A stretch of 64,000 bases of DNA from assembly GCF_001270745.1 (NCBI RefSeq), contig NZ_KQ434753.1:403155-467154 (forward strand), written 5' to 3'. The DNA is from Jiangella muralis (GTDB lineage: Bacteria; Actinomycetota; Actinomycetes; Jiangellales; Jiangellaceae). Below are positions 37,678 through 52,031 of this stretch, piece by piece. How positions within the stretch are numbered: position 1 is the first letter of the stretch; every line of letters begins with the position of its first letter. A program made the position numbers and the translations under genes. The notes under the pieces are model-generated. The model did not search any database. It was given only the letters and a program-made list of their open reading frames with translations, and had not been told where the DNA came from.

Positions 37678-40600
37678 CTAGCCGGCCGCGTCGACCCGCC
37701 AGCCGCGGTCGATCTGCTGGCTGACGGTGTTGCCGGCGGCGTCGGCGACGGTCACCCGCAGCGACGCCAGGCCGCCGGCCGCGGCCGGGACGGTCGCCAC
37801 CAGCGTCCCGTCGCCCGACGGGGTCACGGGGGCCGGCTGCCAGCTGGCGCCGTCGTCGAAGGACACCTCGGCGGTCGCGGTGAACTCGCCCGGGCCATCG
37901 GCGCCCGCCGGGTAGGACGGACGCAGCTCCACCGGGTAGGACACGCCGGCCGGGACCTCGTTGTACAGGCCCGCCTCCAGCCCGTAGTCCAGCTGGATCA
38001 GCGGCAGCACCTCCCGCAGTTCCGACGGCCGCTCGGACCGGAAACCCCACGTCGTCAGCGTGTGCGTCCACAGGTCGGAGAAGTTGCCCCCTCCGGCGGT
38101 CGTCTCCAGTGACAACTCGAAGTCCGCCGCCGCCCCGGGCACGGTGAACTGCGCTTCCGACCAGCCGGCCCGCCCGACCTCGACACCGTCGCGGCGCAGC
38201 ACCAGCTCCGTCTCGTCGCCGAACTGCTGCTGGTTGAAGCCGTACGTCGACGGGCCGTAGAGGTACTGCGGCATCGACACCCGGATCGCGTCGCGGAACC
38301 GCGCGGCCGGCATGCCGTACTCCTCCGACCCGGTCAGCGCCGGCGTGCCGGGCGCCACGAGCGGGCCCCACCAGACCTGCTCGGTGCTGCTGCCCGCGGT
38401 GTACGGCCGGATGCCCGACCACGTCCAGTACACGTTGAGGAACTCCGGGTGCGGCTGGGCGAACCGCTGCCACTCGACGCCGTCGGCGCTCAGGTACTCG
38501 GTGCGGTGCACCGGCCCGTTGCGCATGATGCCCATGGCCGACCCGAGACTGGCGGTGCCGGTGACCGGGACCCACGCCTCGCGCCGGCCCATCTCCGCCG
38601 ACGCCTGCCGGTACTCGGACTCGACGGTGGCGAGGTCGTCGTGGTCGACCTCGTAGCTGCCGCCGTCGGGCACTCCGTCCTCGACGAACGCGAGCTGGTA
38701 GCTGTACTCGGCGTCGCGGCGGCCGGTGACGTCGAGCTCCAGCCCCGGGGTCGCCGCCATGGCGGCACGCAGCTGCTCGCCCACCGGCCGCTCGATGACG
38801 TACGCGGGCAGTGGCGCGTTCCAGAACGACGGCGCCCACGGTCCGGGGCCGGTGTCGGCCACCAGCAGGAACGCCGCGCCGGCCGTGGCGGCCAGCTGCA
38901 GCTGCTCCTGCATCGCCGCGCTGCCGCCCCGCCGGGTGACCAGCGCGATCGCCCCGGCAACGTCGACGGCGGCGAACTCAGCTGCGGTGCCGGTGCCGGC
39001 GTCGACCACCGGCAGCGGGCCGGAGCCGGCGTAGGCGGCCGGCGCGGTGGCCGGGACCGGCGCCGGCAGCAGCCGCTCGCCGTCGGCGCTCAGCTCGAGC
39101 GCCGGCTGGGTGAGCAGCCACGTCGTCGACACCTCGAACGTGCCGGTGCGGGCCGGCCCGCTCTCGAACGTGTACAGGTCGGTGCCGAGATACCCCTGTC
39201 CGGCGGTCATACGGATCGACTGCTCGCCGGCCTGACGCGCCCAGACGACGTCGAACCCGTCCACGCCGGCCTCGCGCGGCGTCGCCACCTCCAGCGGCTC
39301 GGCGTCGCGCGCGTCGTAGGCCAGCGCCACATCGGCGCCGATGTGCAGGTCGGGCTCGGCGGCGAGTGCGAGGCTGGTCTTGATGAGGTCGGGGCCGGGG
39401 GTCTCGACGGTGGTGACGACGGTGTAGTCGCCTTCGGGCACCTCGACGGTGGCGGTGCCCGTGGTCCGTGGCGTGAACACCCGCTTCCACTCGCCGGTCT
39501 CGATGTTCCAGAGGTCGACCGGGCCGTGGGCGGGTGCGCCGTTGCGGTCCACCGCGCTCACCGTGACGGTGTGCACCGGACGCTCGATGGTGAACGTCGT
39601 GACGCTGTGGACGGCGCTGTCGCGGTCGCGCGGGTCCTGCGCGACGATGCGGCCGGTGTAGGTGCCGCCGGTGCTGGCCTCGGCGGACACCTCGACCCGG
39701 GTGCTGGCGCTGCCGCCCGGCGGGATGGAGAGGACGGGGTTGCGCACCCGCATGGCGGGCCGGCTCGGGTCCGACCCGCCCGGCCGGGTGACGTCGGCGC
39801 TGACGCGCAGCGTGACGCGTCGGTCGGTCGGGTTGTGGTAGGTCAGCGTGCGGCTGACGACCGGCGCGTCCATCGCCAGCTGCCCGAAGTCGACGACGCC
39901 CTGGTCGACGGTGATGGACTCGCTCACCGCGGCGGCGACGTCGATCCGGCCGGCGCCCTGGAACGTCAGGCTCTCGTCCAGCGGCGTGCTCGACGTGATC
40001 AGCCGCTGCTTGAGTTGCTCGTCGGTCCAGTCCGGGTGGCTCTGGGCCAGGATCGCGGCCGCGCCGGCGACGTGCGGCGTCGCCATCGAGGTGCCGTTCA
40101 GCGAGGTGTAGTGCCCGTCCAGCAGGTTGCCCAGCGCCGTCCCGGCCGCCCGCGCCGCGACGATGCCGACGCCGGGCGCGACCACCTCGGGCTTGACCGC
40201 GCCGTCGCCGAGCCGCGGGCCCCGCGACGAGAATCCCGCCGCCTGGTCCTGCTTGTCGACGGCGCCGACGGTGAGCGCGGACGTCGCGGCGCCGGGCGAG
40301 CCGACGGTGCTCTCGCCCGGGCCCGCGTTGCCGGCCGCGATGACGAACAGCGCGTCCGACTCGGCGCTGAGCCGGTCGACGGCCTGGCTCATCGGATCGG
40401 TGCCGTCGCTGGCGCCGTCGGTGCCCAGGCTCATGCTGACGATGTCGGCGCCCTGCGCGACCGCCCACTCCATGCCGGCGATGATCCAGTCCTCGTAACC
40501 GGAGCCGGTGTTGTCCAGCACCTTGCCGATCAGCAGGTCGGCGCCCGGCGCCACGCCGACATGTGTGCCGCCGGACGCGGCGCCGGTCCCGGCCACCGTC

Positions 40601-41430
40601 GCCGCGACGTGCGTGCCGTGACCCTGGCCGTCGACCGCGATCTGGCCCTCGGGGTCGGCGTCCTCGGTGAAGTTGCTGGCGCCGGTGACCTGGCCGGCGA
40701 GGTCCGGGTGGGTGGGGTCCCAGCCGGTGTCGAGGACGGCGACGGTGCTGCCGGTTCCGTCCAGCCCCTGCTCCCACGCCTCCGGCGCGCCGATCTGCGG
40801 CACCGACTCGGCCAGCGTCGCCTCGACCCGGCCGTTCAGCCAGACCCGCCCGACCGCGCCGGACACGACGTCGTCCCAGACCGAGCGCACGTCGTCCTTC
40901 GCCGCCGACACCGACAGCGCGCCGATGCTGGGCAGCTCCCGCTCGGCCCGGGTGCCCGAGGGAGCCTCGGGCACGCTGCGTATCCCGGGGCCGTCGGGCG
41001 CGGACACCAGCAGCGGCAGGTCGGTGCGGGCGGCGTCGTGGTAGCCGGCGCCGGCCAGGTAGGTGAGGTCGAACAGCCGCTCGTCCAGCACGCCGGACTG
41101 CACGTACGGGACCGCCTCGTCCGGCAGCGCCAGCACGTGGCCGTCGCGCTCGGCGAACGCCGGCGGCTCGGCGCCGGGCGACGTCTCCGACCACGCCGCC
41201 TGCCGTCCGTCCGGCGCGACGTGCAACGTCACGACGTCGCCGGTGAGCAGCGTCAGCTGGTACGTGTGCCCGGTCGCGGCCGAGCCGGTGGCGGGGGTCG
41301 CCGTTGCCGCGCCGCCCGCGGGCCCGGCGGCGGGCGCCGTCGCACCGGAGCCGAGCAGCAGGGCTGCGGCCACGGCCGGGACGAGCAACCGGGCGCGAGT
41401 GCGGCGCCAGGACAGGATGGTGCGGGGCAT
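37678..41430 (-). CDS. Secreted S8 subtilase with PA-like insert and fused C-terminal beta domain (cassette A)
   Basis: 1250 residues. Signal peptide (about 1-36), an N-terminal region (TYQLTLLTGDVVTLHVAPDG) shared with cassette B, then the catalytic domain: Asp in VAVLDTGWDPTHPDL (about 235), His in GQGHGTHVAATV (about 271), oxyanion Asn in VIAAGNAGP, Ser in LNGTSMATPHVAG (about 460). Beta domains follow, including a PA-like one (PVVDAGTGTAAEFAAVDVAGAIALV). The last 150 residues or so (DFELSLETTAG to the end) are homologous to the separate lipoprotein of cassette B. An extracellular protease; substrate unknown. ATG 41430 gives the signal peptide and has GAGG upstream. Confidence 0.93.
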   Translation of the reverse strand: MPRTILSWRRTRARLLVPAVAAALLLGSGATAPAAGPAGGAATATPATGSAATGHTYQLTLLTGDVVTLHVAPDGRQAAWSETSPGAEPPAFAERDGHVLALPDEAVPYVQSGVLDERLFDLTYLAGAGYHDAARTDLPLLVSAPDGPGIRSVPEAPSGTRAERELPSIGALSVSAAKDDVRSVWDDVVSGAVGRVWLNGRVEATLAESVPQIGAPEAWEQGLDGTGSTVAVLDTGWDPTHPDLAGQVTGASNFTEDADPEGQIAVDGQGHGTHVAATVAGTGAASGGTHVGVAPGADLLIGKVLDNTGSGYEDWIIAGMEWAVAQGADIVSMSLGTDGASDGTDPMSQAVDRLSAESDALFVIAAGNAGPGESTVGSPGAATSALTVGAVDKQDQAAGFSSRGPRLGDGAVKPEVVAPGVGIVAARAAGTALGNLLDGHYTSLNGTSMATPHVAGAAAILAQSHPDWTDEQLKQRLITSSTPLDESLTFQGAGRIDVAAAVSESITVDQGVVDFGQLAMDAPVVSRTLTYHNPTDRRVTLRVSADVTRPGGSDPSRPAMRVRNPVLSIPPGGSASTRVEVSAEASTGGTYTGRIVAQDPRDRDSAVHSVTTFTIERPVHTVTVSAVDRNGAPAHGPVDLWNIETGEWKRVFTPRTTGTATVEVPEGDYTVVTTVETPGPDLIKTSLALAAEPDLHIGADVALAYDARDAEPLEVATPREAGVDGFDVVWARQAGEQSIRMTAGQGYLGTDLYTFESGPARTGTFEVSTTWLLTQPALELSADGERLLPAPVPATAPAAYAGSGPLPVVDAGTGTAAEFAAVDVAGAIALVTRRGGSAAMQEQLQLAATAGAAFLLVADTGPGPWAPSFWNAPLPAYVIERPVGEQLRAAMAATPGLELDVTGRRDAEYSYQLAFVEDGVPDGGSYEVDHDDLATVESEYRQASAEMGRREAWVPVTGTASLGSAMGIMRNGPVHRTEYLSADGVEWQRFAQPHPEFLNVYWTWSGIRPYTAGSSTEQVWWGPLVAPGTPALTGSEEYGMPAARFRDAIRVSMPQYLYGPSTYGFNQQQFGDETELVLRRDGVEVGRAGWSEAQFTVPGAAADFELSLETTAGGGNFSDLWTHTLTTWGFRSERPSELREVLPLIQLDYGLEAGLYNEVPAGVSYPVELRPSYPAGADGPGEFTATAEVSFDDGASWQPAPVTPSGDGTLVATVPAAAGGLASLRVTVADAAGNTVSQQIDRGWRVDAAG

Positions 41431-41550
41431 GGGACCTCGTCTCCTCGGGCCGCGGCCCCGCCGCCCGACGGGGGTTGGCGGGCGGCGGGGTAATCCGCGG
41501 CGGGGGATCACCGTGTGCCCACCGTTCCGTACCGCGCCGTCCGTTGCGAT

Positions 41551-41565
41551 TGGGCGAATCACCCA
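41551..41565. promoter_or_regulatory. TGGG-N7-CCCA palindrome, upstream copy for subtilase A
   Basis: TGGGCGAATCACCCA, an imperfect 15-bp dyad, lies 121 bases before the subtilase start and just after the small-peptide gene. The same form recurs at 41722-41736. Possible binding site for the cassette's LuxR-type regulator. Confidence 0.4.
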
Positions 41566-41586
41566 TTTATGTCCGGCGCGGAACCG

Positions 41587-41685
41587 TCAGAGCGGTTCCC
41601 AGCGCTCGCCGTCGGCGGGCTCCGGCTCGTCGGCGGGCACGTCGTCGTCGGTGTCGTCGGGGTCGGGCGGGTCGCTCACGTGCAT
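41587..41685 (-). CDS. Small acidic peptide ending in WEPL (cassette A)
   Basis: 32 residues, about half Asp, Pro or Glu (MHVSDPPDPDDTDDDVPADE...), ending in GERWEPL. Not recognised as a known family. It lies between the LuxR-type regulator and the subtilase, the same place as the 40-residue peptide ending in GYEPL in cassette B; the matching C-termini and positions are the argument for a real gene. An upstream GTG at 41703, preceded by GCGGA, would add six residues (VSDRDL) and may be the true start, since the ATG has no ribosome site. No signal peptide. Function unknown. Confidence 0.5.
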   Translation of the reverse strand: MHVSDPPDPDDTDDDVPADEPEPADGERWEPL

Positions 41686-41721
41686 GAGGTCACGGTCGGA
41701 CACTCCGCAGCCGTTCGCGAG

Positions 41722-41736
41722 TGGGGAGATCACCCA
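41722..41736. promoter_or_regulatory. Second TGGG-N7-CCCA palindrome at the end of the LuxR gene
   Basis: TGGGGAGATCACCCA overlaps the regulator's stop codon and lies about 20-50 bases before the small-peptide start, a position suited to control of peptide and subtilase. Same spacing as the copy at 41551-41565. Confidence 0.4.
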
Positions 41737-44606
41737 TTCTTCTCGGCGACGGCGACCGCGAGCGCCGTCCGCGACGCGACGCCGAGCTTGCGCATGGCCG
41801 CGCTCAGGTGGCGGTCGACGGTGCGCGGCGAGAGGAACAGCGCCTCGGCGACCTGCCGGTTGGTGAGGCCCTGCGCGACCAGCCCGGCGACCTCGGCCTC
41901 GCGCGGCGACAGCTGGTCGCCGTAGCCGCGCCGGCCGCCGCGCCAGGCCCGGGCGACCTCGACGCCGTTGCCGCGCAGCACCTGGGCGACGCGGTCGGCG
42001 TCCCAGCGGGCGCCGAGGTCGAGCAGCCGCAGCTGCACCGTCGCCAGCAGGTCCAGCGCGGCGGCGCCCGGCAGCAGCACCAGCGCCTGCCGCTCCAGCG
42101 CGAGCAGCTCCTGATAGGGACGGGGCAGCGCGGCCCACGCCGCGGCGGCCACCCCGAACAGCTCCGCGGCGGCGGCGCCGGAGCCGGCCACGATGCCCCG
42201 GCAGACCAGCAGCGCCGCCTGCGGGGCCGGCGCCGCGCGGTCGCCCAGCCCGGCCGCGAACAGGTCGGTCAGCTCGCGCGCGTCGTCCGCCCGCCCGGCC
42301 CGCACCAGCGCGTCGACGTGCGCCGGCGCCAGCTCGGTGGCCCACAGCCAGATCCCCTTGCGCACGACCATCGCCATCGCCGGCTCGGTGACCCGCAGCG
42401 CGTCCGCGACGGCGTCGTCGGCGAGGAGGAGCCGGCCCAGCGCACCGGCCGGCCCCGTTTGCACGTCGACCAGCCCGCGCCGCACCGCCTCGGCGACGAC
42501 CACCCGGAACTGGTCGGCGGCGTCGTCGCGGCGACCGCCGGCGAGGTCGAGCAGGCCGAGGATCATCCGCGCCTCGAGCAGCGCCTCCGGCAGCGTGTCG
42601 GCGGACCCGGCCAGCTCGGTGACCCGCGCCGACAGCCCGTCCCAGGCGCCGCCGTGCCAGTCCAGGTTGGCCCGGGTGATCAGAGCCGAGTTCACCAGCC
42701 GCTGGTAGCCGGTCGCGGCAAGGAGGTCGACGGCGCCGTCCAGCTGCCGCCCGGCGACCGCGTCGCGGCCCCAGCCGATCGCGGTGTGCCCGACGTTCAT
42801 CCGGCAGCGGCCCAGCTGGCGGCGGTCGAACAGGCTGTCCGCCGCGGCGGCGTCGATCTCCTCGGCGGCGGCCCAGCCGGCCGCTTCGCCCATCATCAGC
42901 AGCGCGCTGGCACGGTCGACCGCGAGCCACGTCTGCTCCTCCGCCGGGACCTGCGGGAACAGCGCCGTCGCGCGGTCCAGCCAGTCGCGGTGCCGGGTGA
43001 CCGGCCAGACCTGCCCGCGCGGATGCGACAACGAGATCATCGCCCGCACGGCCAGCTCCGGGCGGCCGGCCAGTTCGCCGGCGGCGGTCTCGACGTGCTC
43101 GATGCCGGTGTCGAAGTCGCCGAGCTGCAGCCAGAGCCGCCCGAGCAGCAGCCGGATCTCGCCGCGGCGGTCGGCCGGCAACTCCGGGCGGTCCAGCGCG
43201 GCGGCCAGCGTCGTGGCGACCACCACGGCCAGCTCGCCGAGCGCCGCGACGCCCCAGGTGGCGGCCTGGCCCAGCTTGTGCGCCAGCCGGGCCTCCCGGT
43301 CCGGCGGATGCGCGGCGGCAGTGAGCAGGTCGTTCAGTAGGACGACGGCGGCGCGGTCCTCGCCGGCCTCCAGCGCGACGTCGGCGGCGGCCTCGGCGTG
43401 CCGGCTCCACGCGGCGACGTCGCCGGCCTCACGGAAGTGCCGGCTCAGCCGCAGCACCGGCGGCGTCGGCAGCTCCTGCAACGCGGCGGCGGCCTGGCCG
43501 TGCAGCAGCCGCCGCTCGGACACCGGCAGCGCCTCCTCCATCGCCCGCGACGCCAGCACGTGCCGGCCGACGAACCGGCCCGGCGACGCCTCACGCAGCA
43601 GCCCCGACGTCAGCGCGGCGGCCAGCCCCGGCCGCGCGTCGTCCTCGTCCAGGCCGGCGACCCGCGCCAGCAGGACGCCGTCGGCCGGCTCGGCCAGGAC
43701 GGCCGCGGCCTCCAGGATTCGGCGCGCGGCCGGCGGCAGCCGGTCGACCCGTTCCAGCACCGAGTCGCGCACCGTCGGCGGCACCTGCAGGTCGTCGACG
43801 GCGCGCCGGGACCACTCGCCGCCGCGGCGGACGATGTCGCCGCGTTCACGCAGCAGCGACAGGCTCTCCTCCAGCGCCAGCGGCACGCCCGCGGTGCGGC
43901 GGTGCAGGAACGAGACGAACTCCGCCGAGACGTCGTCGGTGGCGAACATCGACGCGACCAGCGCGGTCGTCTCGCCGACCGTCAGCGGCTCCAGCGCCAG
44001 CTCCAGGCGGCGCAGCCCGGCCGGCGGGCGCGCCGTCAACCGCAGCAGCGGCGACGCGGCCGGGACGTCGGTGCCGCGGTACGTCACGACCAGGCTGAGG
44101 TCGTGCGCCGTCGCCGCGACCAGCAGCGGCAGGAACTCCAGCGTCGCGGCGTCGGCCCAGTGCGCGTCCTCCAGCACCAGTACTTCGACGCCGGACCGCT
44201 CGACCAGCTCGGCCAGCGCACGGAACAGCCGGTGCCGGGTGGAGCTGGGGTCCGCCAGCGGCTCCAGCGCGGGCGGCAGGTGCTCGGCCCACTCCGGGAA
44301 CAGCGGCCGCAGCGCCCCCGCCAGCGGGCTGAGCCGCACCCCGTCGACCGGCAGCCGGTGCAGCGCGTCGACCAGCGGCCCCAGCGGGAACGGCTCGGCC
44401 AGCGGCGGGCAGGCCGCCACCAGCGTCGTCGCGGGATCCAGCGAACCCAACGCTTCCTGCACCAGGCGGGTCTTGCCGATGCCGGCCTCGCCCTCGACCA
44501 GCGCGAACACCGGCTCGCGCGGCGCGGCGAGCGCGGACGTGAGTGCGGACAGCTCGCGCTCGCGCCCGACGAACGCCGTCCCCGGCACCGCGTGCTGGCG
44601 GTCCAC
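41730..44606 (-). CDS. Large LuxR-family ATPase regulator (LAL/STAND-type), cassette A
   Basis: 958 residues. AAA/STAND ATPase at about 15-300 with Walker A VEGEAGIGKTRLVQ and Walker B VLVLEDAHWAD, a long helical TPR-like middle, and a C-terminal LuxR helix-turn-helix (LSPREAEVAGLVAQGLTNRQVAEALFLSPRTVDRHLSAAMRKLG). Such regulators bind ATP and a ligand, then activate transcription. It is collinear with the cassette B regulator over its whole length. The GTG at 44606 has GGGAGG five bases upstream and gives VDRQ, matching VDQP at the start of the paralogue; the frame open to 44753 would overlap the divergent promoter. Confidence 0.93.
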   Translation of the reverse strand: MDRQHAVPGTAFVGRERELSALTSALAAPREPVFALVEGEAGIGKTRLVQEALGSLDPATTLVAACPPLAEPFPLGPLVDALHRLPVDGVRLSPLAGALRPLFPEWAEHLPPALEPLADPSSTRHRLFRALAELVERSGVEVLVLEDAHWADAATLEFLPLLVAATAHDLSLVVTYRGTDVPAASPLLRLTARPPAGLRRLELALEPLTVGETTALVASMFATDDVSAEFVSFLHRRTAGVPLALEESLSLLRERGDIVRRGGEWSRRAVDDLQVPPTVRDSVLERVDRLPPAARRILEAAAVLAEPADGVLLARVAGLDEDDARPGLAAALTSGLLREASPGRFVGRHVLASRAMEEALPVSERRLLHGQAAAALQELPTPPVLRLSRHFREAGDVAAWSRHAEAAADVALEAGEDRAAVVLLNDLLTAAAHPPDREARLAHKLGQAATWGVAALGELAVVVATTLAAALDRPELPADRRGEIRLLLGRLWLQLGDFDTGIEHVETAAGELAGRPELAVRAMISLSHPRGQVWPVTRHRDWLDRATALFPQVPAEEQTWLAVDRASALLMMGEAAGWAAAEEIDAAAADSLFDRRQLGRCRMNVGHTAIGWGRDAVAGRQLDGAVDLLAATGYQRLVNSALITRANLDWHGGAWDGLSARVTELAGSADTLPEALLEARMILGLLDLAGGRRDDAADQFRVVVAEAVRRGLVDVQTGPAGALGRLLLADDAVADALRVTEPAMAMVVRKGIWLWATELAPAHVDALVRAGRADDARELTDLFAAGLGDRAAPAPQAALLVCRGIVAGSGAAAAELFGVAAAAWAALPRPYQELLALERQALVLLPGAAALDLLATVQLRLLDLGARWDADRVAQVLRGNGVEVARAWRGGRRGYGDQLSPREAEVAGLVAQGLTNRQVAEALFLSPRTVDRHLSAAMRKLGVASRTALAVAVAEKNG

Positions 44607-44788
44607 CCACACCTCCCGTCGCGCCGCAGGAACGTCGTCGCCGGCCGGTCCGCCCCGCCGAGGTCGGCAATCAGCCAGCCTAGAGCAGCGGCAGCCGCGC
44701 CTGTTGACCGGTTCGGTAGGCTCCTGTGACCCACCAGCGTCACACGTCGTCACGCACCGCTGCCCCCGGTGCGGCGAGGGGGTGCATC
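44607..44788. promoter_or_regulatory. Shared divergent promoter region of the two cassettes
   Basis: 182 bases with no gene. The hexamer TAGGCT appears on both strands (44677-44682 read on minus, 44717-44722 on plus), each a plausible -10 for the regulator on its side. TGTGAC-N8-GTCACA (44725-44744) sits where plus-strand transcription would begin and may be an operator. Confidence 0.45.
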
Positions 44789-47716
44789 GTGGACCAGCCC
44801 GACGACACCGCGCTCGTGTCGGTGCCCGCCCTGGTCGGACGCGAGCGCGAGTCGGCCCTGCTGACCCGGACGCTCACCGGCGGGCCGGCCCTGGTGCTGG
44901 TCGAGGGCGAGGCCGGGGTGGGCAAGAGCCGGCTGGTCCAGGAGTTCCTCGCCTCCGGCGCGGGCCGCCGGCTGCGCACCGTCGTCGCCGCCTGTCCGCC
45001 GTTCCGCGACTCCCTGACTCTCGGGCCGATCGTCGATGCCTTGCGCGCCGCACCTGAACCGGTGAGCGGACGGCGGCTCAGTCCGCTGGCCGGGGCGTTG
45101 CGGCCGCTGTTCCCGGAGTGGGCCGGCGCGCTCCCGCCGGCGCCCGAGCCGCTCACCGACCCCGGTGCGTCCCGCCACCGGATGTTCCGGGCACTGGCCG
45201 AGCTGGTCGACGGCTCCGCGCTGGACCTGCTGGTGCTGGAGGACGTCCACTGGGCCGACGACGCCACCGTCGAGTTCCTGCTCTTCCTGCTCGCCGACCC
45301 GCCCGGCCACGACCTCGCGATCGTCCTGACCTACCGGCCCGACGACCTGGGCGCGGCATCGCTGCTGCGGCGGTTGACCGCTCGGCCGCCGTCCGGCCTG
45401 GCCCACGCGCGGCTGACACTCGGGCTGCTGGACGTGGCCGCGACGGCGGACCTGATCTCGTCGATGCTCGGTGGCGAGCCGGTGTCCACCGCGTTCGCCG
45501 CGTTCCTGCACGACCGCACCGACGGCCTGCCGCTGGCGGTCGAGGAGTCGGTCCGGCTGCTGCGTCAGCGCGACGACGTGATCCGCCGCGACGGCGAGTG
45601 GGTGCGGCGCAGCCTGACCGAGCTGACGGTGCCGCCGACGGTGCGTGACTCGGTGCTGGAACGGGTCCAGCGGCTCGGGGCCGACGCCCGGTCGGTGCTC
45701 GAAGCCACCGCCGTCCTGGCCGAGCCGGCCGGCGACGACGTCATCGCGGCGACGGCCGGCCTGGCCAGGCCGCGGGCCCGGGCCGCGCTGGCCGAGGCCG
45801 CACGGTCCGGGCTGCTCGGCGACGACGGGCGCGGCCGGCCGGCGTACCGGCACGTCCTCGTGGGCCGGGCCGTGTACGACGCGATCACCGGGGCGGAGCG
45901 ACGGCGGCTGCACGAGCGCGCCGGGCGGGCGCTCGAGCGGCTCCGCCCGCCGCCGGTGATGCAGCTCAACCGGCACTTCCGCATCGCGGGCGACCTGCCC
46001 CGCTGGACCCGCTACGCCGAGCGGGCCGCCGACGCCGCGATCGCCTCCGACGACCAGACGACGGCCGTCGCCGTTCTGCAGCCCGTCGTGGCCGGCGGCG
46101 AGCTACCGGCACCGGACCTCGCCCGGCTGGCCGCCAAGCTGGCCACCGCCGCGAGTTCCCGGCGCGAGTCGCTCGACGCGGCCCACGCGCAGGTCATCGA
46201 TGTTCTGCGGGACGTTCTCGAGCACGGCGGGCTGGACGCCACGGCGCAGGCGGAGCTGCGGATCCCGCTGGGCCGGTTGCTGTTGCAGTCGGGCGAGTTC
46301 GAACCGGCCCGGGTCGAACTGGAGCGGGCGGTGCCGGGCCTGACGCACCGGCCGGGCGCGGCCGCCGTCGCGATGACCCTGCTCGGCTACCCGTTGCCGG
46401 AGCCGCGGCCGGCGGCGGAGCACCTGCGGTGGCTGCACCGGGCGGAGCGGGCGGCGCGGGAGGTCCCGGCAGAGTTGGATCGGCTCGCGTTGACCGTCGA
46501 CCGCGCCGCGGCGTTGCTGGCCCTCGGCGAACCGGACGGCTGGGACGTCGCCGCGCGGCTGCCCACGGACCTGCCCACGACGGAAGGGCGCTGCCAGCTC
46601 GCGCGCGGCCACGCGAACATCACCTACGCCGCGCTGCTATGGGGGCGCTACGCGACCGCCCGGCGGCACCTGGACCACGCGATGGAGCTGGCCGAGACGG
46701 CCCGCTTCGCGCGGCTCAGCACCACGGCGGGTGAGCTGTTGGTGCTGACCGAATGGCTGACCGGCGACTGGTCCGGGCTGGCCGGCCGTGCGACGGCGCT
46801 GGCCGACGACGCCGCACCGGACGCGACCCCGGCCGCCCTGCTGGTCGGGGCCCTGCTGGGTGTCGCGGCGGGCCGGCCAGGCGCCGGCCGCGAGCTGCGT
46901 GGCCTGCTCGCGCGGACCCGGTCCGACAGCATCGCCGTCCTGCCGCTGATCCCGGCCGCTGTCCTGGCCCGGCAGGAGCTCACCACCGGCCGTGCCACCG
47001 CCGCCCTCGAGCTGACCGAGCGGCCGACGACGGCCGTGCGGACCTCCGGCACCTGGATCTGGGCGACCGAGATCGCCCCGGTCCGGGTGGACGCTCTGCT
47101 GGCGGCCGGCGAGCGGGACGCGGCCGTGGCGTTCGTCGCCGACTTCGGCCGCGGGTTGAGCGGCCGGGACGCGCCGGGACCGCAGGCCGCCCTCACGACC
47201 GCCCGCGCGAGCCTGGCCGCGGCCTCCGGCGACCACCTCGCCGCCGCCCGCGCGTTCACCGACGCCGCCGACCGCTGGTTCCGGCTGCCGCGTCCGCACG
47301 AGGCGCTGCTGGCCGGCGAGCGGGCGGCGGGCCACCTCGTCGCGGCCGGCCGGTCCGAGGACGGACTCGCGCTGCTCGCCCGGATCCAGCAGGCACTCAC
47401 CGACCTCGGCGCCGGTGCCGACGCGACCCGGGTCGCGGGCACGCTGCGCGCACACGGCATCCGACCGCCCGCGGGGGCCGGCGCCCGCCGCGGCCGGCGC
47501 GGCTACGGCGACCAGTTGTCGCCCCGCGAGCTGGAGGTGGTCCGGCTGGTCATCACCGGACGGACCAACCGGGAGATCGCACAGACCGTGTCCCGCTCAC
47601 CGAGGACGGTGGCCGCGCAGCTCGCCTCCGCCATGCGCAAGCTCGGCGTGACGTCGCGCACCGCGCTGGCGGTCACGGCGGTCGAGGCCGGGCTGGCCGG
47701 CGACACCACGGCCTGA
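44789..47716 (+). CDS. Large LuxR-family ATPase regulator, cassette B
   Basis: 975 residues with Walker A VEGEAGVGKSRLVQ, Walker B LLVLEDVHWADD, a TPR-like middle and C-terminal HTH (LSPRELEVVRLVITGRTNREIAQTVSRSPRTVAAQLASAMRKLGVTSRTALAV). It shares long runs with the cassette A regulator (RRLSPLAGALRPLFPEWA; LTVPPTVRDSVLERV; RRGRRGYGDQLSPRE-like), so they are paralogues. The DNA-recognition helix differs (NREIAQTVSRSPRTVAAQL against NRQVAEALFLSPRTVDRHL), so targets may have diverged. GTG 44789 follows GAGGGGG by seven bases. Confidence 0.93.
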   Translation: MDQPDDTALVSVPALVGRERESALLTRTLTGGPALVLVEGEAGVGKSRLVQEFLASGAGRRLRTVVAACPPFRDSLTLGPIVDALRAAPEPVSGRRLSPLAGALRPLFPEWAGALPPAPEPLTDPGASRHRMFRALAELVDGSALDLLVLEDVHWADDATVEFLLFLLADPPGHDLAIVLTYRPDDLGAASLLRRLTARPPSGLAHARLTLGLLDVAATADLISSMLGGEPVSTAFAAFLHDRTDGLPLAVEESVRLLRQRDDVIRRDGEWVRRSLTELTVPPTVRDSVLERVQRLGADARSVLEATAVLAEPAGDDVIAATAGLARPRARAALAEAARSGLLGDDGRGRPAYRHVLVGRAVYDAITGAERRRLHERAGRALERLRPPPVMQLNRHFRIAGDLPRWTRYAERAADAAIASDDQTTAVAVLQPVVAGGELPAPDLARLAAKLATAASSRRESLDAAHAQVIDVLRDVLEHGGLDATAQAELRIPLGRLLLQSGEFEPARVELERAVPGLTHRPGAAAVAMTLLGYPLPEPRPAAEHLRWLHRAERAAREVPAELDRLALTVDRAAALLALGEPDGWDVAARLPTDLPTTEGRCQLARGHANITYAALLWGRYATARRHLDHAMELAETARFARLSTTAGELLVLTEWLTGDWSGLAGRATALADDAAPDATPAALLVGALLGVAAGRPGAGRELRGLLARTRSDSIAVLPLIPAAVLARQELTTGRATAALELTERPTTAVRTSGTWIWATEIAPVRVDALLAAGERDAAVAFVADFGRGLSGRDAPGPQAALTTARASLAAASGDHLAAARAFTDAADRWFRLPRPHEALLAGERAAGHLVAAGRSEDGLALLARIQQALTDLGAGADATRVAGTLRAHGIRPPAGAGARRGRRGYGDQLSPRELEVVRLVITGRTNREIAQTVSRSPRTVAAQLASAMRKLGVTSRTALAVTAVEAGLAGDTTA

Positions 47717-47816
47717 GCGTCCGCACGCATTCTTTGAGTCATTTGCCGGGTTACAACCGGATCGCCGCGCCGTGACACTCGGTGCACCCGTTTTGCGCAC
47801 GACCCGGAGGAAGCCC

Positions 47817-47939
47817 ATGCGCGATCCGCAGACCGTCGGGCCGCCGCCGGATCACGAGACCGCGGATCCCGCTCCCGCGGTCCCCGCTCCACCAGCCCCC
47901 GAACCTGGACCCGATCCCGACGGCTACGAGCCGCTCTGA
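47817..47939 (+). CDS. Small proline-rich acidic peptide ending in YEPL (cassette B)
   Basis: 40 residues: MRDPQTVGPPPDHETADPAP, then Ala/Pro/Glu-rich sequence ending GPDPDGYEPL. It has a strong ribosome site (GGAGG seven bases before the ATG) and ends 19 bases before the subtilase start, so it is very likely translated and co-transcribed. No signal peptide, cysteine or hydrophobic segment. Not recognised as a known family. Its counterpart in cassette A ends in RWEPL. It could be a signalling peptide, a protease-linked pro-peptide or a RiPP-like precursor, though no modification enzyme is near. Confidence 0.7.
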   Translation: MRDPQTVGPPPDHETADPAPAVPAPPAPEPGPDPDGYEPL

Positions 47940-47958
47940 CCGGGCCGGAGAGGCGACG

Positions 47959-50900
47959 ATGACCCCGCACACCATCCGAACCCACCCACGACTCCGGCGC
48001 TTCGCGCTGGCGGCCGTCGCGGTCGCCGGTCTGCTGGCCGCCACGACGGCGCACGGCGGGGACGACCCCGCGACCGCCGCGCCGCTCGACGGCGCACCGG
48101 TCAGCCTGCCCACCATGCCCGGCGAGACCGTCACGATCACGCTGATCACCGGCGACCGGGTCGAGGTGATCCCGGCCGCTGACGGAGCACCAGAGGTCGC
48201 CGGGGTGGAACCGGCGCCGCGCGCCCACGGCGCGCCGATCGGCTTCCAGACCTTCCGGCACGACGACGACGTCTACGTCGTGCCATCCGACGCCTCCGGC
48301 CTGCTGGCCGCCGACCGGCTGGACCCCGAACTGTTCAATGTCAGCGGACTGCTCGAGGACGGCATCACCGGCGCGGCCGGCCTGCCGCTGATCGTCCAGT
48401 ACGACGCCACCCGCCGGCAACCGGCGCAGGCCCTGCCCGGCGGCGAGCGCGGCCCGTCGCTGGAGAGCATCAACGGCAGCGGGCTGCACGTCGATGCCGC
48501 CGATGCCGCCACGTTCTGGGCGGCGGTGGACCCGGCGCCGGCGGCGAGCGCCGCGGCCCGGCTCGATCGCGGCCTCGCCCGCATCTGGCTGGATCGCCCG
48601 GTCGAGGCGTCGCTGGACGTGAGCGTCCCGCAGGTCGGGGCTCCGGAGGCGTGGGAGGCCGGGTACGACGGCGACCGTGTCACCGTCGCGGTCCTGGACA
48701 CCGGCGTCGACGCCGGCCACCCCGACCTCGTCGGCCAGGTGGCGGACAGCCGCAGCTTCGTGCCCGACCAGGAGGTGGCCGACGGCCACGGCCACGGCAC
48801 CCACGTCGCCTCCACCGTCGCCGGCATCGGCGGCCGCTACCGTGGCGTCGCCCCGGGCGCCCGGCTGTTGGTGGGCAAGGTGCTCAACGATTCCGGGTCC
48901 GGTTCCAGCTCGTGGATCATCGAGGGCATGGAGTGGGCGGTCGAGCAAGGCGCCCGCGTCGTCAGCATGAGCCTGGGTGGCGATCCCACGGACGGCACCG
49001 ATCCGATGAGCCAGGCGGTCAACCAGCTCAGCGCCGAATCCGGCGCTCTGTTCGTCATCGCGGCGGGCAACAGCGGCCCGGAGGCCGGCACCGTCGGGGC
49101 GCCCGGCGCCGCCGATGCCGCGCTCACCGTCGCCGCGGTGGACAAGCAGGACGACCTGGCGTCGTTCTCCAGCCGAGGTCCGCGGGTCGGCGACGCCGGG
49201 CTGAAGCCGGACCTCGCCGCACCCGGCGTGAAGATCGTCGCGGCGCGTGCGGCCGGTACGTCGCTCGGCGAACCGCTGGACGAGCTGCACACCGCCGCGA
49301 GCGGCACCTCCATGGCGACCCCGCACGTGGCAGGCGCCGCCGCGATCCTGGCCCAGCAACACCCCGACTGGTCCGGGCCGCAGCTGAAGGCCGCACTCAC
49401 CAGCACGGTCGCCGACGTCGGCGGCACCGTCCCCGAGCTGGGCGCCGGCCGCCTCGACGTCGCCCGCGCGACCACACAGGGTGTGGTCGCCGATGGTCCG
49501 CTCTGGTTCGGGCACCTGCCGTATCCGCAGACGGCGCCGGTGACGCGCAGCGTCGCCTACACCAACACCGGCACCGCACCGGTGGTGCTCGACCTGACCG
49601 CCACCCTGACGACGGCGGGCGGCGCCCCGGCGCCGGACGGGCTGATCGCGGTGCGACCGCGCTCGCTCACGGTCCCCGCCGGCGGCACCGCCACGGCCGA
49701 GATCGTCGTGGACGCGTCCGGCGGCTCCGCGGCCGGCCTCTACCAGGGCCGGATCACCGCCGCGTCGGCGACCGGTTCGGTGCGCCTCACTACCGTGACC
49801 GGCGTGTACGTCGAGCCGGAGACGTTCGACCTGACCGTCTCCGCCACCCTGCCCGAAGGGAGCACCGCTGCGGCGTTCGGCGGCTGGCTGGTCGTGCGCA
49901 ACGACGGCTGGATCGACTTCGCCGACAACCTCGTACGGCTGCCGGCCGTGCCGAAGGCGACCGTCGAACTACCGCGCGGCGACTACACCGTCGCCACCCA
50001 GATCGGCTGGTACGACGCGAACGGCGAAAGCAACATCTGGCTGCCGCTCGAGCCGCAGGCACAGCTGGACGGCGACACCACCGTCCGGTTCGACCTGGCG
50101 GAAGCGGCTCGGCTCGGCGCGTCCACCGACCAGCCGGCCGAGGCCTACGGCAGGTGGCTGCGCTACGAGCGAACCGGTGCCGGTGACGCCTGGAGTCTCA
50201 GGGCGGAACTGCCCGGCGCCACCGGCGCCACCAGCGCCACGTCGTTCTGGATGACGCCGACCGATCCGGTGGACGCGGGCACGCTGGAGCTGACGTCGCA
50301 GCAGGTGCTCGGGCCGCCGCTGCTGTCCATGCAGACGCTGGGCGCCCGGCCACTGACCCTGCGGCCGCGGTACCGCTCGGCCGACATCACGGTGCCGAAG
50401 CTGGACACCGTCCGCCCGTTCCCGGTCGTCGATGCCGGCAGCGGCACGCCCGAGGAGCAGGCCGGCGCCGACGTCGCCGGCGCACTGGTGCTGATCTCGC
50501 CGGACGACCTGTGCACCCCCGGCTGCGCGTCCGGGCTCGCCGACCGGGTGAGCGCCGCGGCACAGGCCGGCGCGGCCGGCGTGCTGGTGACCGGTCCCCT
50601 GGCGCGGCCCGTGCTCGGCGCCACGCCCCTGGCGCTGCCGGTCGCGACGCTGCCGCCGGCGGACGGCGCGGCGCTGGCCGCCGAGCTGGACCAGCGCCCG
50701 GTGCGCGTGCGCCTCGGCGGCGACCCGAGCGTGCCGTCGCTGACCCTCGTCACCCATACCGAGACCGGTGCCGTGCCCGCCGACCTCGACTACGAGGTGG
50801 CCGACGAGGAATTGGCGGTGGTGCACCATGACCTCCACCTCGACGCCGCGGACGGAACCGCCACCCGGCGACTGTTGTGGTGGGTCGGTCGCGATAAGGC

Positions 50901-51429
50901 CGAACTGCCCTACGTCACCGCACCGAGGCGGCTGACCGTGCGGGTCGGGCCGGCCGATCCGGGCATCGTGCACACCATCGAACTGCAGGACGACGACAAC
51001 TCCGACGGCGGGCTGTACCTGGAAGACACCCGGCAGGTGTTCGGCGCCGCGGGCCCGTACGAGGTGGCGTGGAACAGCGGGCCGCTGGTGCCGGGGCCGG
51101 CCACCCGGCCGACCGGTGACGGCCTGACGTCGGCGCTGAGCGCATGCGCCGGCTGCCGCCTGGGCGACGTGTTCCTGCCGTTCATGTACCTGGGCCCGTC
51201 GGCCGAGCACGAGGCCTCCATGCTCGGGCTGGTCGAAGGCGGCGCGCTGGTGCCGGGCCCGCACATCTGCCGGCCCGACGACCCGGAGCACCCGCCGAGC
51301 GGCCCGCCCAGGTACCAGTGCGAGGTGCGCCTCTACGACGAGGACGGCGACGAACTCGAGCCGCGCCTGGTCAGCGAGAGCGGCGCCATCCCGCCGATCG
51401 GTGCCGCTGCCACGGAGGAGGACCGATGA
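47959..51429 (+). CDS. Secreted S8 subtilase with PA-like insert (cassette B)
   Basis: 1156 residues. Signal peptide (RTHPRLRRFALAAVAVAGLLAATTAHGG), N-terminal region VTITLITGDRVEVIPAADG as in cassette A, then the triad: Asp in VAVLDTGVDAGHPDL, His in GHGHGTHVASTV, Asn in VIAAGNSGP, Ser in ASGTSMATPHVAG. A PA-like domain follows (PVVDAGSGTPEEQAGADVAGALVLIS) with a Cys pair (LCTPGC). It ends (YDEDGDELEPRLVSESGAIPP) just where the cassette A enzyme continues into its C-terminal domain. GGAGAGG ribosome site; the longer upstream frame is not used because it would swallow the peptide gene. Confidence 0.94.
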   Translation: MTPHTIRTHPRLRRFALAAVAVAGLLAATTAHGGDDPATAAPLDGAPVSLPTMPGETVTITLITGDRVEVIPAADGAPEVAGVEPAPRAHGAPIGFQTFRHDDDVYVVPSDASGLLAADRLDPELFNVSGLLEDGITGAAGLPLIVQYDATRRQPAQALPGGERGPSLESINGSGLHVDAADAATFWAAVDPAPAASAAARLDRGLARIWLDRPVEASLDVSVPQVGAPEAWEAGYDGDRVTVAVLDTGVDAGHPDLVGQVADSRSFVPDQEVADGHGHGTHVASTVAGIGGRYRGVAPGARLLVGKVLNDSGSGSSSWIIEGMEWAVEQGARVVSMSLGGDPTDGTDPMSQAVNQLSAESGALFVIAAGNSGPEAGTVGAPGAADAALTVAAVDKQDDLASFSSRGPRVGDAGLKPDLAAPGVKIVAARAAGTSLGEPLDELHTAASGTSMATPHVAGAAAILAQQHPDWSGPQLKAALTSTVADVGGTVPELGAGRLDVARATTQGVVADGPLWFGHLPYPQTAPVTRSVAYTNTGTAPVVLDLTATLTTAGGAPAPDGLIAVRPRSLTVPAGGTATAEIVVDASGGSAAGLYQGRITAASATGSVRLTTVTGVYVEPETFDLTVSATLPEGSTAAAFGGWLVVRNDGWIDFADNLVRLPAVPKATVELPRGDYTVATQIGWYDANGESNIWLPLEPQAQLDGDTTVRFDLAEAARLGASTDQPAEAYGRWLRYERTGAGDAWSLRAELPGATGATSATSFWMTPTDPVDAGTLELTSQQVLGPPLLSMQTLGARPLTLRPRYRSADITVPKLDTVRPFPVVDAGSGTPEEQAGADVAGALVLISPDDLCTPGCASGLADRVSAAAQAGAAGVLVTGPLARPVLGATPLALPVATLPPADGAALAAELDQRPVRVRLGGDPSVPSLTLVTHTETGAVPADLDYEVADEELAVVHHDLHLDAADGTATRRLLWWVGRDKAELPYVTAPRRLTVRVGPADPGIVHTIELQDDDNSDGGLYLEDTRQVFGAAGPYEVAWNSGPLVPGPATRPTGDGLTSALSACAGCRLGDVFLPFMYLGPSAEHEASMLGLVEGGALVPGPHICRPDDPEHPPSGPPRYQCEVRLYDEDGDELEPRLVSESGAIPPIGAAATEEDR

Positions 51430-52031
51430 GCACGATCACGACCCGCCGCGGCGCCGTCGTCGCCGCACTCCTGGCCCTGGTGGTCCTGGCCACCGGCTGC
51501 CGCGTGATCGCCTACGACCTGGCGCCGGAGCCGCAGCGCTACCAGATGACCCTGGACCAGCGGACGGGTGTCAGCACCGTCCACACCTCCTGGGAGTTCG
51601 TCTCGGCGCACGTGGCCGAGGACGACACCCCGGCGGGCACCATCTGCTTCGGCAACTGGGTCCCCGAGCTCGGTCTGAGCGGTCCGTGCGAGGCGGAACC
51701 GCTGATCTTCCTCAGCTACGAGTTCGGGCTCGCGCTGGACAACACCGCACGAGCGGGGCGGCCGCACACGATCGCCGTCACCGGCTACTACGAGGACGGG
51801 ACCAACGGACTGGAGGTCACCGAGCTCACCGCCTGGGCGAGCTATGACGACGGAGCGGAGTGGGCGCCGGTCGACGTCGAGCCCACCGGGCCGGGCACGT
51901 TCGACCTGAGCCTGCGCCACCCGGGCCTGGACCGCACCTCCGGCAGCGTCGCGCTGCGCGTGCGGGCCGAGGACGGCGACGGCAACACCGTGGAGCAGAC
52001 CATCCAGGACGCGTACGCGCTGCGGCGCTGA
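51426..52031 (+). CDS. Lipoprotein homologous to the C-terminal domain of subtilase A
   Basis: 201 residues. A lipoprotein signal with lipobox LATGC (lipidated Cys 25) is followed by a beta domain. From about residue 39 it aligns with the end of subtilase A: YQMTLDQRTG with FELSLETTAG, PLIFLSYEFGLALDN with PLIQLDYGLEAGLYN, YDDGAEWAPVDVEPTGPGTF with FDDGASWQPAPVTPSGDGTL, and DGDGNTVEQTI with DAAGNTVSQQI. The ATG overlaps the subtilase stop (ATGA). It probably tethers the protease or its product to the membrane face. Confidence 0.88.
   Translation: MSTITTRRGAVVAALLALVVLATGCRVIAYDLAPEPQRYQMTLDQRTGVSTVHTSWEFVSAHVAEDDTPAGTICFGNWVPELGLSGPCEAEPLIFLSYEFGLALDNTARAGRPHTIAVTGYYEDGTNGLEVTELTAWASYDDGAEWAPVDVEPTGPGTFDLSLRHPGLDRTSGSVALRVRAEDGDGNTVEQTIQDAYALRR

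Follow-up and report, generated by a model that had tools for sequence, protein, structure and literature searches.

Do two very small peptide genes, each lying between a large regulator gene and a protease gene, belong functionally to the regulator or to the protease? The question is raised by a stretch of the Jiangella muralis genome (contig NZ_KQ434753.1) inside an analysed window of 64,000 nucleotides. Two paralogous large ATP-binding regulators of the LuxR family (LALs) diverge there, and both cassettes, read outward, have the order LAL, short acidic peptide gene and large S8 protease gene (Table 1). An earlier note on this DNA had described two divergent LALs 182 bp apart, each followed by a short peptide gene with a WEPL or YEPL end and by an S8 gene, and all these parts are present. 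It interpreted them as a duplicated peptide/protease circuit, possibly for signalling, with the peptide sensed by or linked to the regulator. The link between peptide and regulator is also our best reading. Naming the circuit after the protease is not supported, since the peptide tracks the LAL. The sequence comparisons are best read as pointing to a conserved unit of regulator and peptide, with a secreted protease as the usual output. The module looks to be present in Jiangella and scattered other actinobacteria and is apparently undescribed.

Survey of regulators and downstream reading frames

The first relatives were the best 80 of at least 122 confirmed loci. Further relatives came from searches of 393 genomes and of 22 from the window's family, from which 72 regions were taken, omitting three cut by contig ends. 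This gave 135 LALs of at least 150 bits. One exact copy was dropped and eight LALs at contig ends were omitted, leaving 126; close relatives were kept. An open reading frame (ORF) was counted if it had 20–140 codons, started −40 to +400 nt from the LAL stop and ended in [FWY]xP[LIV], the literal [WY]EPL motif having been widened once YQPL, FEPV and others turned up.

Such an ORF lies downstream of 43 of the 56 LALs with at least 957 bits and of one of the 70 lower-scoring LALs, locus L068 with 954 bits and a broken LAL frame. By LAL score, the ORF was found for 37/45 at 1100 bits or more, 6/11 at 957–1100, 1/12 at 800–957, 0/29 at 690–800 and 0/29 below. The background in the same loci was 43/5360 for random anchors and 6/2365 for the stops of other long ORFs, four of these six being the peptide of locus L064 itself. 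Loci obtained only by the genome searches gave the ORF for 25 of 33 high-scoring and none of 37 low-scoring LALs. The nominal Fisher values of these survey comparisons, 7e-21 and 2e-12, ignore relatedness.

A further set was tested with a fixed pattern, because pattern and threshold postdated the first look at the survey. It started from 250 genomes in the family of genome G144, 25 of which yielded at least 41 matches in total, and comprised 39 new loci, 37 of them testable. The ORF was present at 26 of the 37, or at 24 of 34 after removal of three near-copies of earlier LALs. The rest of the 34 consists of seven near variants (HEPL three times, WVEV, WVEL, FEPA and WVKA) and three loci with nothing. 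Related genomes thus do have a small conserved frame with such a C-terminus next to a regulator of this kind; the earlier note had named its absence as one of the outcomes that would refute its proposal.

Near-variant endings (WVDV, WVLL, WFPA, HEPL, WVKA, WVEV, WVEL and FEPA) were seen in L071, L201, L212, L220, L268, L269, L270, L279, L285, L287 and L290, so even the proline is not absolutely fixed. On the minus strand of L187 (genome G012), two tandem WEPL ORFs lie between −4 and 353 nt from the LAL stop, before the protease. The related LALs of L066, L067, L069, L072, L088 and L092 are without the peptide and have an S8 protease nearby on the opposite strand, divergent from the LAL in the first four. 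These loci possibly represent an older pairing of LAL and protease without the peptide.

A LAL match at E 1e-100 was obtained in 19 of the 22 genomes of the window's family, and at E 1e-270 in at least 25 of the 250 genomes of G144's family. A phylum sample of 395 other genomes, with two or three candidates each, gave no LAL match at E 1e-270. Two or three candidates per genome were scored in the searches of 393, 395 and 250 genomes, so these counts are lower bounds. Outside the two families the module looks sporadic.

Paralogs in the same genome

A search of the genome with S8-B gave, among weaker matches, 11 large S8 paralogs. Three of them have an ORF ending in [WYF]EPL directly upstream, the third ending in RRPDGYEPL. 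The stretches upstream of all 11 were inspected, and neither a [WYF]EPL ORF nor a LAL of the subfamily was found at the other eight. With LAL-B as the query, three subfamily LALs (2047, 1002 and 706 bits) were followed by a match of 91 bits. All three LALs precede a peptide gene and an S8 gene; the third cassette (C) is located elsewhere in this genome. Eight similar S8 genes without peptide or LAL indicate that, in this genome, peptide and LAL subfamily go together, and they speak against a peptide/protease circuit. In an S8 tree (FastTree), S8-A groups with solo S8 proteins, and S8-B and S8-C are placed elsewhere.

Regulator phylogeny and module outputs

The LALs have about 960–980 amino acids, with AAA_16 near the N-terminus and a C-terminal GerE helix-turn-helix domain (Pfam). 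All 47 matches of a LAL profile to PDB sequences are confined to positions 892–972, the GerE region. A quick tree of 100 LALs, rooted at the midpoint, placed the peptide carriers in two clades with strong support (45 and 17 LALs), both of which include some peptide-less LALs. The remaining large clade of 37 LALs and the LAL of L235 have no peptide. LAL-A and LAL-B belong to different parts of the clade of 45 and are 48% identical. The earlier note was right to call them paralogs, but they are old ones and not the product of a recent mirror duplication. The latter was considered and rejected on the different clades of LAL-A and LAL-B and on the occurrence of the divergent pair also in L185 and L187.

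Several outputs are found downstream. The S8 proteases carry a PA domain, CarboxypepD_reg and malectin domains (L057) or a kelch domain (L210). L079 encodes a sedolisin-type protein (kumamolisin, E 5e-17) with close relatives in L065 and L068 (68% identity). In L061, L064 and L220, a stretch that is 42–49% identical to that of L079 adjoins proteins with no match in Pfam. Five loci (L205, L206, L208, L209 and L211) have a LAL and a peptide with no S8 or sedolisin-type match within the roughly 10 kb retrieved. Their peptides end in W[LH]PV. Among the neighbours that were typed, L205 and L211 have a GH3 enzyme and L206 has a LacI regulator; for L208 and L209, the neighbouring frames examined had no match in Pfam. 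The outputs vary while the peptide stays beside the LAL, so that assigning the peptide to the regulator module is the best reading. Its retention beside LALs with a sedolisin-type protease, or with no S8 or sedolisin-type protease found in the stretch retrieved, again speaks against a circuit defined by the S8 protease.

Alignment columns specific to carriers cluster at LAL residues 201–300, which we assign to the helical and winged-helix part of the nucleoside-triphosphatase (NTPase) module. There, 12 of 30 carrier-conserved columns are carrier-specific, compared with 16 of 188 elsewhere (nominal p 4e-5), in a comparison of 49 carriers with 40 non-carriers that is confounded by clade structure.

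The peptide

The 44 peptides counted in the survey and two from loci at contig ends were compared. The 46 peptides end in YQPL, YEPL, WEPL, FEPV, FEPL, YVPI, YVPL, WHPV, WLPV or WVPL, and the C-terminal consensus is [DE]-G-[FWY]-[EQ]-P-[LV]. The last four residues have an entropy of 1.38, 1.46, 0 and 0.86 bits, compared with 2.0–2.9 bits for the preceding 12; the search pattern itself fixes the proline and limits the first and last residues of the tetrapeptide, leaving only position −3 free. The peptides are rich in acidic residues (24% D/E) and proline (20%), with a median length of 49 and a range of 27–114 amino acids if the most upstream start is taken. A hydropathy scan of all 46 revealed no evident signal peptide (median maximum −0.1, highest 1.14).

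Codon variation fits a translated frame. The conserved residues show synonymous codon variation, and all three stop codons are used. For a frame test, 9 of the 13 WEPL orthologs were aligned from their common start. On 27 gap-free codons, the variable columns number 6, 12 and 17 at codon positions 1, 2 and 3. On those codons, the in-frame ratio of nonsynonymous to synonymous differences per site (pN/pS) is 0.55, compared with 1.92 and 1.11 for the two alternative frames; taken over all aligned codons, the in-frame ratio is 0.67. The last eight codons have a pN of 0.063 and a pS of 0.348.

In the window, pepA ends in GERWEPL and has a net charge of −12, and pepB ends in DGYEPL with a net charge of −7. 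Pfam and NCBIfam gave no family match for either peptide. A homology search with pepB gave two candidates, none at E 10 or better.

Operator-like sites

The WEPL clade shares a 20-bp operator-like site, TGGGTGATYNNCCCAMTCGC (up to two mismatches), at or just before the LAL stop. One site precedes the peptide and one the protease in 12 of 13 WEPL loci; the contig of the 13th stops 306 nt past the LAL stop. The second site of L195 is located 847 nt beyond the stop codon of the peptide gene, and the S8 frame begins next to this site. Shuffling predicts 0.01 matches in the window for a pattern that was derived from sites 1 and 2 themselves. The only exact matches in the 7.27-Mb genome are the two in this cassette; two further matches have one or two mismatches, and the reversed control gives two. 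A second pattern, of the B type and derived from cassettes B and C, matches the genome twice, both times in those cassettes. Since the patterns match essentially their own cassettes, a local regulon is predicted. The 182-bp divergent region has no match to either pattern, and the LAL genes therefore do not look autoregulated via such sites.

In all 13 WEPL loci, the distance from the start of site 1 to the sole in-frame ATG of the peptide is 51, 52 or 54 nt. Inspection of these loci by eye revealed no Shine-Dalgarno sequence before the peptide start. From this spacing we infer that the activator site is positioned near −41 and that the mRNA is leaderless.

Features of the two cassettes

Both S8 proteases have hydrophobic N-termini, with maxima of 2.58 and 2.65 (mean Kyte-Doolittle hydropathy, 11 residues), the latter for S8-A. 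A ribosome site of the GGAGG type is read in the sequence upstream of pepB. The stop codon of S8-B is overlapped by a lipoprotein-like ORF whose LATGC motif we take to be a lipobox. By sequence similarity, this ORF is apparently a C-terminal domain of the S8-A kind, split off in cassette B as a surface lipoprotein. The earlier note had extended the stretch to 52031; its features are correct, and its end takes in this separate gene. A GC-rich hairpin is located on the minus strand at 41435–41530, between site 2 and the S8-A start and directly 5′ of the Shine-Dalgarno sequence. Folding of 41425–41530 gave a minimum free energy of −58.1 kcal/mol (z −1.9). Similar inverted repeats were seen by eye in several relatives. 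An Rfam scan of the window gave no match at the gathering threshold.

Table 1. Features of the two cassettes, in window coordinates.
Feature	Position	Strand	Evidence
S8-A, subtilase with PA domain, predicted secreted, 1250 aa	37678-41430	-	Pfam Peptidase_S8 E 4e-66, PA E 2e-5
Operator-like site 2, TGGGTGATTCGCCCAATCGC, between pepA and S8-A	41546-41565	-	Pattern match
pepA, 32 aa, MHVSDPPDPDDTDDDVPADEPEPADGERWEPL, predicted leaderless	41587-41685	-	Sequence, ORF, orthologs, frame test
Operator-like site 1, TGGGTGATCTCCCCACTCGC, overlaps LAL-A stop	41717-41736	-	Pattern match
LAL-A, STAND-type ATPase, C-terminal GerE (LuxR), WEPL clade	41730-44606	-	AAA_16 5.5e-21, GerE 1.1e-17, tree
Divergent region of 182 bp between chosen LAL starts	44607-44788	.	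Sequence
LAL-B, architecture as LAL-A, YEPL clade	44789-47716	+	AAA_16 2.9e-19, GerE 8.2e-14, tree
Operator-like site, B type	47738-47765	+	Pattern match
pepB, 40 aa, MRDPQTVGPPPDHETADPAPAVPAPPAPEPGPDPDGYEPL	47817-47939	+	Sequence; third copy, with the end PDGYEPL, before another S8
S8-B, subtilase, predicted secreted, 1156 aa	47959-51429	+	Pfam Peptidase_S8 E 8.8e-63, hydrophobic N-terminus
Lipoprotein-like ORF	51426-52031	+	BLASTP to S8-A residues 1140-1240, 36% identity, E 2e-12

Function of the peptide

The favoured explanation, with a probability of roughly 0.45, is that the peptide acts as a cytosolic feedback ligand, contacting its own LAL through the free C-terminus. The survey counts, the conserved peptide ends, the paired sites, the varying outputs and the lack of an evident signal peptide speak for it, as do the precedent of MalT and the column cluster at residues 201–300. 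MalT, one of the signal transduction ATPases with numerous domains (STANDs), is kept in an inactive state by proteins binding to its NTPase module: MalY at an oligomerization interface, MalK and Aes via residue T38 of the nucleotide-binding domain (NBD) (PMC10427625). STANDs of the tetratricopeptide repeat (TPR) type are autoinhibited through contacts of the NBD with the arm and with the sensor (PMC6468293). The column cluster, though confounded by clade, fits a docking of the peptide on the NTPase module.

An activated LAL, as a MalT-like STAND switch, would bind the operator-like sites and turn on peptide and exoprotease together. The peptide, which has no evident export signal, would stay in the cytosol. 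Its last four residues would dock on the LAL, the disordered acidic part forming a tail, and this docking would close a feedback loop on the regulator. By analogy with MalY, MalK and Aes, we lean slightly towards negative feedback by an anti-activator over positive feedback. The variable N-terminus and the clade-specific last residues may keep paralogous LALs of one genome from cross-talk.

Several points weigh against a cytosolic feedback ligand. The contact between LAL and peptide is itself one that we infer. A ligand sensor would be expected in the presumed sensor region, where 6 of 68 columns are carrier-specific, and Pfam detected no TPR in LAL-A or LAL-B at E 0.1. No LAL column compensates the change from E to Q or to a hydrophobic residue at peptide position −3. 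The 957-bit line and the motif were chosen after inspection of the first survey. The strict motif is absent in 13 of the 56 high-scoring LALs: three of these have near variants, and ten have no recognisable peptide directly downstream, among them L064 with a YEPL peptide upstream on the opposite strand. In L199, the operator-like site is directly followed by the S8 gene, so the peptide is not always needed.

A peptide that leaves the cell would offer a different explanation. It could be exported, trimmed to its C-terminal end, perhaps by the co-regulated protease, and re-enter as a pheromone that activates the LAL, comparable to NprX and NprR. The adjacency of regulator, peptide and protease suits this view, as does conservation confined to the C-terminus, since the last residues of most RRNPP propeptides are the mature signal (PMC10075063) and NprR with NprX activates nprA (PMC4970707). 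The peptides, however, have neither a signal peptide nor a strongly hydrophobic stretch, and extracellular processing by the protease would require some other export route. The cassette has no exporter gene, the wider surroundings not having been searched for one, and the five LAL-peptide pairs with no protease found nearby do not fit. The secreted-signal reading of the peptide is weakened by these sequence features, and a pheromone is unlikely. Inside the cell, the free end in Pro-Leu/Val and the acidic, proline-rich body could also suit a tag read by a cytosolic protease of the Clp type or similar. A short-lived adaptor would then deliver the LAL or another protein to degradation, which would likewise result in negative feedback. 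Such a tag should follow the host, but it varies by LAL clade (YQPL, YEPL/WEPL, FEPV, WLPV) and several coexist within a single genus, which makes a degron distinctly improbable.

The position of the peptide gene, mostly upstream of a secreted protease, raised the possibility that the peptide inhibits that protease, assists it as a chaperone or serves as its substrate. The predicted compartments of the two differ, a like C-terminus occurs with S8, with sedolisin-type or with no protease, and 8 of the 11 large S8 paralogs of this genome do without the peptide; this partnership was rejected as slightly less probable still than a degron. A leader peptide controlling the protease in cis, by stalling at its Pro-Leu-stop end, was rejected as very improbable. 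The conserved proline one residue before the end would suit stalling, and the gap between the peptide stop and the next start is short in cassette B (19 nt), in the third cassette (36 nt) and in L057, L079 and L076 (14, 21 and 37 nt). L062 and L063, however, have gaps of 155 and 333 nt. In 12 of 13 WEPL loci, peptide and protease are separated by a second operator-like site, as far as 847 nt beyond the stop, and five peptides have no protease found nearby. Operator-like sites flank the ORF and nearly touch it in one clade, as might be expected if the conservation reflected DNA elements such as operators in an untranslated stretch. The bias to third codon positions, the low pN in the last eight codons, the three stop codons and the synonymous codons for the same tetrapeptide make this hardly credible.

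Beyond this locus, and more tentatively than for the cytosolic ligand itself, the peptides may represent a widespread undescribed class of short linear ligands encoded along with STAND/LuxR switches. Each switch would be locked or triggered by the free aromatic-x-Pro-Leu/Val end of its own cytosolic peptide, with clade-specific endings as an address code between paralogs in one cell. Antibiotics are among the traits under the control of actinobacterial LALs, and a ligand is known for few of these regulators. If true, the proposal would provide a candidate ligand, open to direct testing, for an entire LAL subfamily, a handle for turning its exoproteases on or off, and a new control mode for STAND proteins, a group that includes immune receptors.

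Comparison with known systems

The earlier note knew of no described system with this layout, and nothing among the literature matches listed (open-licence full texts) contradicts this. In the main text of a study of Streptomyces small ORFs (PMC10654065), the words LuxR and subtilisin are absent. Other actinobacterial LALs, for example SCO0877 and SCO7173, share the general domain plan. They differ from the module in that 69 of the 70 LALs below 957 bits in the survey are without such an ORF.

MalT has a GerE-type DNA-binding domain. The likeness consists of a STAND NTPase core combined with a DNA-binding domain and, in MalT, an activity set by a ligand and inhibitor proteins (PMC10427625). 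The inhibitors of MalT, in contrast, are enzymes or a transporter subunit, and the passages of that paper considered here mention no co-encoded peptide with a conserved C-terminus.

The RRNPP system NprR-NprX with its target nprA shares the organisation of the module. NprA is secreted. The regulator adjoins a small peptide gene with a conserved C-terminus, and a protease is among the outputs (PMC4970707, PMC10075063). RRNPP propeptides of 10–100 amino acids are encoded beside the receptor gene (PMC10075063), in a size range that includes the 32 and 40 amino acids found here. The module's peptides differ by lacking, on hydropathy, a SEC-like or PptAB-type hydrophobic signal and a basic or hydrophobic N-terminus (PMC10075063). 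RRNPP receptors have 250–500 amino acids and TPRs (PMC10075063), whereas the LALs, at about 960–980 amino acids, combine AAA_16 with GerE and have no TPR match in Pfam.

AfsR and AfsS of Streptomyces provide the remaining comparison. AfsS is small, and afsS is adjacent to afsR. AfsR has an N-terminal SARP domain, whereas the Pfam hits of the LALs include no SARP and place GerE at the C-terminus. The output of the module is mostly a protease. The likeness lies in a large STAND activator that directly targets a regulator-encoding gene, afsS (PMC10936776); here, conserved candidate sites precede the peptide gene.

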